Part shown: piece by piece, positions 17,920 to 33,245 of the stretch | Numbering within the stretch: the stretch's first letter is position 1 | Layout: each line of letters opens with the position of its first letter | NCBI GenBank assembly: GCA_020062545.1 | Contig: JAGUWD010000009.1 | Location: 62,001 to 126,000 of the forward strand | Length of the DNA stretch: 64,000 bases | Direction: 5' to 3' | From: Thermodesulfovibrionales bacterium | Lineage (GTDB): Bacteria > Nitrospirota > Thermodesulfovibrionia > Thermodesulfovibrionales > Dissulfurispiraceae | The notes under the pieces: model-generated | Told to the model about the DNA's origin: nothing | Databases searched by the model: none | Seen by the model: only the letters and a program-made list of their open reading frames with translations | Position numbers and translations under genes: made by a program

Positions 17920-18023
17920 TGTCATTATCTGTTGATAATCAAATTTTAAATAATCCCTGTTATTCACTTCAGAGCCCCATCCTTATCGCTGGATCACAGA
18001 ATTTATTTGTTTGAAAGGTGGTT

Positions 18024-31750: not shown

Positions 31751-31822
31751 CGTTAGGTTATAGGTCATAGGTTATAATTTATCTTCGTGTTCTTTTTCAC
31801 CTTGCCCATTACCTATTCTTTA
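31751..31822. repeat. Heptamer array between ruvA and ruvB
   Basis: Units GGTTATA, GGTCATA, GGTTATA at 31756-31776, with an approximate complement (CCCATTACCTATT) at 31804-31816 that includes the ruvA stop. The same word GGTCATA occurs at the ligD start. Confidence 0.7.
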
Positions 31823-32382
31823 GTAAGATATTTTAATGACTCCCTGAGTAAACTTTCAATATCCTTATGGCCGCTGTCATACGCCTTTTCAAGGGCTTCC
31901 TGCGCTGTATTCTTTTTATAGCCGAGGTTTACGAGTGCGGACAGGGTATCGTCATAAATAGTGTCTTTCTTTTCTTTAATGGATGGAAGCTTTCCCTTCA
32001 GCTCAAGGATTAACCTGTGGGCTGTCTTCTTGCCGAGTCCCGGCACCTTGCAGAGGACATCCACATCTTCGGAATTTATTGCATTGTGAAAATTATCCGG
32101 CGGAATAGTCGAGAGTATATTTAATGCTACCTTCGGCCCTATTCCTGATATGCCTATGAGCGTGGTAAATATCCTCTTCTCATCCTCTGTCTGAAATCCA
32201 TATAGATGTATAGCATCTTCTCTCACATGTGTGTGTATATACAGAAAGACATCTCTGTTTTCTTCAGGCAGGGATGAAAGCAGCGTTAAAGGCACCTGAA
32301 CACTGTAGCCTACGCCACCCACATCTACTGTCAGGCTCTCCGGCCTTTTTGAAATCAGTTTTCCACGCAGCGATGCAATCAC
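31813..32382 (-). CDS. ruvA: Holliday junction DNA helicase RuvA
   Basis: RuvA binds four-way junctions and loads RuvB. The 189-residue protein carries the OB domain (VIASLRGKLISKRPESLTVDVGGVGYSV), the two helix-hairpin-helix motifs (LIGISGIGPKVALNIL and LCKVPGLGKKTAHRLILEL) and the C-terminal UBA-like domain III. The track starts at 32421 with MLTTGCCLLYTNV, which comes from a heptamer array. I use GTG at 32382, which gives the family start. No Shine-Dalgarno is clear for either. It lies between ruvC and ruvB, separated from ruvC by a 310-bp foldback element. Confidence 0.93.
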   Translation of the reverse strand: MIASLRGKLISKRPESLTVDVGGVGYSVQVPLTLLSSLPEENRDVFLYIHTHVREDAIHLYGFQTEDEKRIFTTLIGISGIGPKVALNILSTIPPDNFHNAINSEDVDVLCKVPGLGKKTAHRLILELKGKLPSIKEKKDTIYDDTLSALVNLGYKKNTAQEALEKAYDSGHKDIESLLRESLKYLTKE

Positions 32383-32394
32383 AACATTAGTATA

Positions 32395-32422
32395 CAGCAA
32401 ACAGCAGCCAGTAGTCAGCATT
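32395..32422. repeat. Heptamer array CAGCAAA upstream of ruvA
   Basis: Units CAGCAAA, CAGCAGC, CAGTAGT, CAGCATT, directly before the ruvA GTG. It makes a false in-frame N-terminal extension in the ORF track. Confidence 0.78.
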
Positions 32423-32436
32423 TAATAATACCCAAA

Positions 32437-32746
32437 TCCAGCAATAAGGATAGGTCTCTGGAGTGAATAGCTATGTTTTGGTAACAGTTCTTTGCGACTG
32501 GAGCGTCAGGCAATGGTATAATCTTTCCGCTTCATTCTCGAATGGCATCCAGCCATTCTCCGAAGCAAAGACAGCCCGCTTAGGCATCCATTCCACGCTT
32601 GGGCTGTCCAAGTCGCTTCAAGACCATACCATTGCCTGACAGACGCAACTGTTTGAGCGAAGCGAGTTTTGCGGCTGTAGCGAAAGAAGCATTAGAACTG
32701 TCAAAACAGAGCTCCTGAACGAAAGAGACTTATACTTATTGCTGGA
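32437..32746. mobile_element. 310-bp nested foldback element (element D) between ruvC and ruvA
   Basis: The 383-bp gap between ruvC and ruvA holds one large palindrome with no ORF. The outer inverted repeats are 23 bp with two mismatches (TCCAGCAATAAGGATAGGTC at 32437, complement ending at 32746). A second tier pairs AGCTATGTTTTG...ACAGTTCT (32469-32491) with 32694-32713. A third tier is a perfect 15-bp pair, GTCAGGCAATGGTAT (32505-32519) with 32626-32640. Two central hairpins follow: GAATGGC/GCCATTC (32540-32558) and GACAGCCC/GGGCTGTC (32570-32608). It looks like a MITE-type insertion or a structured RNA; no transposase is present. Confidence 0.85.
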
Positions 32747-32765
32747 CGCGATATCAGGTTATCAT

Positions 32766-33245
32766 CTATCTGCTATTCGCATGACAGATTGCCAATGCAA
32801 GCGCATCTGCGCTGTCTGGAGATAATGAATGCTTAATGTTTAATATCTCCACTACCATCTTCTGCACCTGATTCTTATCAGCCCTGCCGTAACCCACTAC
32901 TGCCTTCTTCACCTCAAGGGCGCTGTACTCATAGATTGGAAGTCCGGTCAAAGAAGCAGCAAGAAGCACCACTCCTCTTGTATGCCCGAGACTGAGGGCT
33001 GCCTTTGTCCCTTTTGCAAAGAATATCTTCTCTATCGCTATTTCATCAGGTTTATATTCAGCAATCACATCCACAAGGGACGTGTAAAGCTCCGTGAGTC
33101 TTACGTGAAGTGGCTTGTTTGCAGGCAAAACTATCCTGCCTGAGGAGAGGTATTTAACTTCTGACTTCTGACTTCTGACTTCTGACTTCTGAATAAGTCC
33201 ATATCCGCAGTTTATACTTCCGGGGTCGATTCCGAAAATTTTCAT
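32766..33245 (-). CDS. ruvC: Crossover junction endodeoxyribonuclease RuvC
   Basis: RuvC resolves Holliday junctions. The 159-residue protein opens with MKIFGIDPGSINCGYGLI (first catalytic Asp), then AIEKIFFAKGTKAALSLGHTRGV, ALEVKKAVVGYGRADKNQVQKMV and SPDSADALALAICHA (last acidic pair). Between the first and second strands a heptamer array encodes QKSEVRSQKSEVKY, a seven-residue repeat not part of the family. It is the first gene of the ruvC-ruvA-ruvB run, and yebC, often upstream, is absent. Confidence 0.97.
   Translation of the reverse strand: MKIFGIDPGSINCGYGLIQKSEVRSQKSEVKYLSSGRIVLPANKPLHVRLTELYTSLVDVIAEYKPDEIAIEKIFFAKGTKAALSLGHTRGVVLLAASLTGLPIYEYSALEVKKAVVGYGRADKNQVQKMVVEILNIKHSLSPDSADALALAICHANSR
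33156..33193. repeat. Heptamer array GACTTCT in ruvC
   Basis: AACTTCT followed by four perfect GACTTCT units. On the minus strand the 7-bp period reads through all three frames in 21 nt, giving the seven-residue repeat KSEVRSQ with no stop. Confidence 0.95.

Follow-up and report, generated by a model that had tools for sequence, protein, structure and literature searches.

Bacillus bcr1 and ERIC-type repeats are mobile elements of 100–200 bp whose conserved fold shows compensatory changes. To our knowledge neither locus-specific arms nor an inversion of the core have been described for them, and they differ from the two repeat families reported here in sequence and in the phylum in which they occur. 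REP, REPIN and BIME elements are hairpin doublets that are present in intergenic regions in high copy number and nested in palindromes (PMC3733652), as is the inner of our two families. The palindromes enclosing REP dimers have a consensus sequence (PMC3733652), unlike the arms of the inner family. Template switching has been described to homogenise the arms of short inverted repeats and to invert the spacer between them (PMC8604942), and it has been proposed that hairpins are maintained by simultaneous change on both sides via template switching (PMC8794818).

In the present analysis we investigated a fold-back element located between ruvC and ruvA in a 2.62 Mb genome of a Thermodesulfovibrionales bacterium. 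The window, i.e. the whole stretch of DNA analysed, comprises 64,000 nucleotides. Both neighboring ORFs are located on the minus strand, with ruvC upstream (32766–33245) and ruvA downstream (31813–32421) of the element; according to the tblastn alignment of relatives the true start of ruvA is probably near 32382 (...VIASLRGKL). An earlier note on this DNA had placed nested inverted repeats in a segment of 310 bp, and this is where we found them: the outer inverted repeat (32437–32459 and 32724–32746) is 23 nt long and 91% complementary, the inner one (32505–32525 and 32620–32640) 21 nt long and 90% complementary, and the shared terminal sequence TCCAGCAATAAG is present at either end of the 310-nt element. 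The fold-back was thus confirmed, but the outer unit is slightly longer than noted and spans about 32431–32750, since the family consensus starts with CCCAAATCC and finishes with GGATCACAG. The folding energy of the 310 nt is -129.2 kcal/mol versus -87.1 +/- 5.6 kcal/mol in 100 dinucleotide shuffles (z -7.6), none of which folded as well. In agreement with the description of the element as free of ORFs, no ORF of at least 60 aa overlaps with it.

Two families of dispersed, non-coding repeats make up the 310-bp segment, the inner nested within the outer. The earlier note had treated it as a single element; the inner repeat, however, is found by itself as well, with strong covariation in its stems. 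Searching the same genome for further copies we obtained 47 BLAST matches that fall into three classes: near full-length composites, copies of the flanks only and copies of the middle only. There are four near full-length composites (the ruv copy, C29, C6 and C3) and about 22 solo inner copies; solo outer copies are present as well. The latter read GGAGCG-TTAA-ACAGCCG (in the longer form ...CTGGAGCG-TTAA-ACAGCCG...) where the composites hold the inner element of ~132 bp. The solo outer form was also detected in G001, G002, G014 and G023, and in G012, where a short additional insert occupies this position. Due to its presence in several genomes the solo form is likely to be the ancestral state. 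One composite was found in G015, a genome of another genus, with 84% identity overall and nearly identical inner arms, which indicates that the composite spreads as a unit.

All parts of the ruv composite are given on the plus strand. The left half of the outer element (32431–32506) begins with the family end CCCAAATCCAGCRATAAGGAT... and aligns with the solo outer copies of its own genome and of G001, G002, G012, G014 and G023. The right half (32639–32750) runs to ...ATACTTATTGCTGGA, the family end ATCCTTATCGCTGGATCACAG being eroded here to CGCG, and includes an apical hairpin at 32639–32679 (family form ACAGCCGCAA...TTGCGGCTGT). Between the two halves lies the inner element as inserted (32507–32638), which is missing from all solo outer copies and which is matched by the R1 covariance model with 150.9 bits. 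Its left arm (32505–32525, GTCAGGCAATGGTATAATCTT) and right arm (32620–32640, AAGACCATACCATTGCCTGAC) enclose the conserved core of ~95 nt (32527–32621), common to 26 loci in this genome and 98 in G015. Within the core, hairpin 1 (32540–32558) is of the type GAATGGC-ATCCA-GCCATTC with the loop ATCCA, and hairpin 2 (32570–32608) is of the type GACAGCCC...GGGCTGTC.

Members of the outer family are about 200 bp long with the consensus ends CCCAAATCCAGCGATAAGGAT and ATCCTTATCGCTGGATCACAG. Four solo outer copies are flanked by 5-bp target duplications, namely AATTA (L012), TTTTA (L015), TAAAT (L011) and AGAAA (L036, in G001); the ends of the ruv copy are eroded and no target duplication is visible there. 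As a short non-coding element that ends in inverted repeats and has dispersed intergenic copies, 5-bp duplications and empty sites, the outer repeat resembles the MITEs of bacteria. It differs from them in two respects: its interior folds and covaries over the whole length, with a common consensus fold of 60 pairs and compensatory changes in 25 pairs among 12 solo copies, and no parent insertion sequence carrying its ends was found in the five genomes searched, where paired outer-type ends gave short derivatives and no recognisable transposase. One candidate for an autonomous outer element in G002, with ends 2.6 kb apart, was rejected as the sequence between them contains host genes, among them one similar to nadA. 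For neither family did we find a transposase or autonomous partner. In the outer alignment (A3) G.U pairs exceeded A.C mismatches by about 51 to 6, as counted by hand over columns that are not independent, unlike in the inner family; going by this excess, the outer family may be constrained on one strand.

To see whether the ruvC-ruvA site is occupied elsewhere we made use of 12 relatives in which RuvC is 68–97% identical. In eight of them ruvA follows, and the composite is absent from all eight, so that the empty sites asked for in the earlier note do exist. The two genes overlap by 14 bp in G015 and are separated by 5 bp in G012, both relatives at the family level, and by 78 bp in G002 and about 129 bp in G001; in G003, whose RuvC is 97% identical, 238 bp of other sequence lie between them. 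The assumption that the operon is normally tightly packed consequently applies to two relatives (-14 bp and 5 bp) but not to three genomes of the same genus (about 78 to 238 bp). The insertion of the composite at the ruv locus is recent and lineage-specific, which disfavors a regulatory RNA specific to ruv. With eight relatives lacking the composite at this position, it is a mobile repeat and not an RNA of the ruv operon, and we assign it no specific role in the expression of ruv. Of the two readings offered in the earlier note, the MITE-like one is therefore supported, by the further copies, the empty ruv site and the 5-bp duplications at other outer copies, while the structured RNA of the ruv operon is not, the site being empty in relatives.

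The inner family is characterized by the ~95-nt conserved two-hairpin core and flanking complementary arms of ~20 bp. An alignment of 16 copies yielded a branched fold of one stem and two hairpins, in which 21 of 38 pairs are compensated within one genome. A covariance model built from these 16 copies detected family members mostly within one taxonomic family, with 26 copies in the own genome, 98 in G015, 46 in G004, 28 in G012, 17 in G007 and 12 in G001. By a pattern scan of named genomes the same architecture was also found in Desulfurivibrio sp. AMeS2, Desulfobulbaceae, Desulfobacterales and other Nitrospirota, where the sites show variable complementary arms and a hairpin 1 with ATCC loop, followed by a second hairpin. 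In Desulfurivibrio there were 14 such sites versus none with a reversed control pattern. At four loci in other Nitrospirota (L212 in JdFR-86, L232, L245 and L267) hairpin 1 and the variable arms are kept and the second hairpin is different, and the inner core therefore looks modular. Furthermore, half copies and core-less copies exist which resemble internal deletions. Longer terminal repeats (TCATAAACTTTGTTATG) were considered as an autonomous form of the inner element and rejected, as only full, half and core-less deletion copies were found. Plasmid and phage records gave no matches. When empty sites of the inner family were compared by eye, no clean direct repeat that would represent a target duplication was recognised.

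Within a subfamily the inner cores are ~95% alike. The arms vary by locus and yet remain complementary: among 79 inner copies 94.8% of the cells were paired, versus 80.4% after shuffling and 32–47% after sliding. In this set 27 of 38 pairs had changed on both sides, almost all of them from one Watson-Crick pair to another. Since there are almost no G.U intermediates, the covariation of the inner family looks like a process at the DNA level. The eight arm columns at the outer end contain as few G.U as A.C cells (12 each, of about 630), so there is no hint on either strand of the G.U tolerance that an RNA helix would show. An excess of A.C over G.U across the arms (81 versus 18) was rejected as a strand signal, because a small number of columns with common ancestry account for most of it, and it is gone in the most variable columns (12 versus 12). 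The earlier note had taken covariation as the mark of an RNA. Covariation is indeed there, but in a mobile element and with the appearance of a DNA-level process, and does not amount to proof of an RNA.

Next to the comparison between loci, copies at the same locus can be compared between genomes. At 17 intergenic sites the inner element is present in at least two genomes, flanked on either side by genes that match. At six of these (L093, L098, L100, L092, L118 and L108) the core is inverted in at least one genome. For the L093 site the arms are nearly identical between G000, the genome studied here, and G001, and the flanking proteins are 97–98% identical, with the core reversed. At the L066/L067 and L097/L117 sites the arms are shared but the subfamily of the core differs between genomes, which suggests an exchange of cores between copies or concerted evolution. 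The arms at shared sites are mostly related and have changed together: over 18 comparisons with 297 arm pairs, 46 pairs had changed on both sides versus 12 expected if the sides were independent, and 36 of the 46 were Watson-Crick pairs before as well as after the change. Leaving out three doubtful comparisons, 29 doubly changed pairs remained versus 6.4 expected. Adjacent double changes did not qualify as a multi-base signature (8 versus 5.1, p 0.10), and since the double changes are not significantly clustered, template-switch events spanning several bases are not proven. For L092/L214/L238 and L118/L265 the arms are so unlike that independent insertions at one spot are possible. A different arrangement was seen at the L101 site, where the inner element of this genome is replaced in L190 (G003), L193 (G001) and L202 (G002) by an ordinary hairpin that resembles a terminator and precedes a run of T.

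Taken together we regard it as likely that the ruv element combines two MITE-like, non-autonomous repeats which are mobilised in trans, and in which template switching matches the arms and flips the core. According to this model the ~132-bp inner repeat would have entered the ~200-bp outer repeat, and the pair would then have dispersed as one unit, with one copy landing between ruvC and ruvA. The repeats would be moved by a transposase acting in trans that recognises the conserved core or the ends. After insertion, template switching during replication would keep the drifting arms complementary and occasionally flip the core. For the contribution of template switching between the arms taken by itself we have moderate confidence; both of its known behaviors, arm homogenisation and spacer inversion, are seen here. 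The described cases (PMC8604942, PMC8794818) are alike in these two processes, both of which we infer for our copies, and unlike in that they concern individual short inverted repeats as well as RNA genes, and not a dispersed mobile family.

Where the arms are concerned, the leading alternative is selection: if the transposase requires a DNA hairpin, the arms could be kept paired for that reason, and selection on a hairpin of DNA or RNA would hold them paired in the same way; selection alone, however, leaves the flipped cores unexplained. A dedicated enzyme acting on the core hairpins, an invertase or transposase which rewrites the arms and flips the core in place of template switching, appears rather improbable to us. 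If true, it would represent a new class of mobile elements with a conserved center and disposable ends, occurring in Nitrospirota and Desulfobacterota. A function of the inner element as a structured RNA (an intercistronic mRNA stabiliser, an attenuator or an sRNA), with the composite acting on ruv expression, is suggested by the very strong covariation of the inner pairs and by the many copies located 5–25 nt from genes and between co-directional genes, in the own genome with 15 ++ versus 5 -- orientations. Over all loci, however, the orientation is mixed (43 ++ and 30 --), cores are inverted at 6 of the 17 shared sites, the variable arms have few G.U pairs and no preference for G.U over A.C, relatives lack the composite at the ruv site and Rfam has no match for the 310-nt segment, so that we consider this function unlikely.

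The arms could also be target DNA, acquired by insertion into existing palindromes or by duplication of the target in inverted form. Locus-specific arms around subfamily cores that are ~95% alike would fit, as would the terminator hairpin in place of the inner element in three relatives at the L101 site, the inner elements nested inside other palindromes and the reported REP dimers within palindromes (PMC3733652). We therefore searched with the flanks of 16 inner loci of the own genome in four relatives. The empty sites of L103 (in G001, G002 and G005), L078 (in G002), L095, L097, L114 and others contain neither arms nor core, and the outer element acting as host contains no arm sequence either; the arms thus belong to the inserted unit and not to the target. 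In addition, related arms recur at different loci, as in L095 (G000) and L157 (G001) or in L100 and the composites, and so travel with the inner element. An origin from the target has accordingly a low probability. Mobilisation of REPIN/BIME-type elements by a RAYT (Y1) transposase is lower still in our estimate: the copies are short intergenic hairpin doublets and Y1 transposase genes occur in seven of the eight genomes checked, but no inner element lies within 1.5 kb of the 27 Y1 loci and G005 has inner copies yet no Y1 gene. Unlike REP, REPIN and BIME elements, the consensus of the inner family shows neither a GTAG nor a CGTC tag at the hairpin base, and it is the center that is conserved, with variable, locus-specific ends. 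Finally, on the complementary strand both hairpins expose GGA in the loop (GGCUGGAUGCC, ACAUGGAUGU), as decoys for CsrA/RsmE would. The ATCCA-type loops are nearly invariant, and CsrA is encoded in the own genome and in G015. In the own genome, however, the strand with GGA usually runs antisense to its neighboring genes, and there is no CsrA in G012 (96% complete, 28 copies) or in G013 (66% complete, 1 copy), making a decoy function extremely unlikely.

The proposed composite of trans-mobilised repeats with template switching at the arms would have consequences beyond this locus. Compensatory base changes are usually taken as proof of a functional RNA. In the inner family massive covariation occurs in a mobile element whose arms and orientation change at fixed sites, so a process of DNA replication may mimic the conservation of an RNA, and the family serves as a warning for RNA discovery based on covariation. 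Template switching at inverted repeats could be studied in this family under natural conditions, since some lineages have about 100 copies in each genome. In the open-access literature on repeats of Nitrospirae or Desulfurivibrio we found a description of neither the inner nor the outer family, and going by this literature both are apparently uncatalogued. The inner family, a variant with a conserved core and disposable covarying arms, reaches at least two phyla.

Several further observations were made on the outer family and in the window. Contigs C13, C14, C34 and C47 of G000 each end within outer-family copies, i.e. the assembly breaks at the outer repeat, and its copy number in G000 is probably higher than counted. 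A second kind of nesting was seen in L359 (G000:C22:1295-1424), where outer-type ends surround a different palindrome (TCATTGCGAG...CTCGCAATGA). Outside the ruv locus the window contains a truncated second outer-family piece on the minus strand (17962–17999), in which a right-type terminus (CTGTGATCC) is fused to left-half sequence, as if recombined. Within ruvC itself, an in-frame tandem ACTTCTG repeat (33158–33192) specifies the residues SEVRSQKSEVK close to the RuvC N-terminus.
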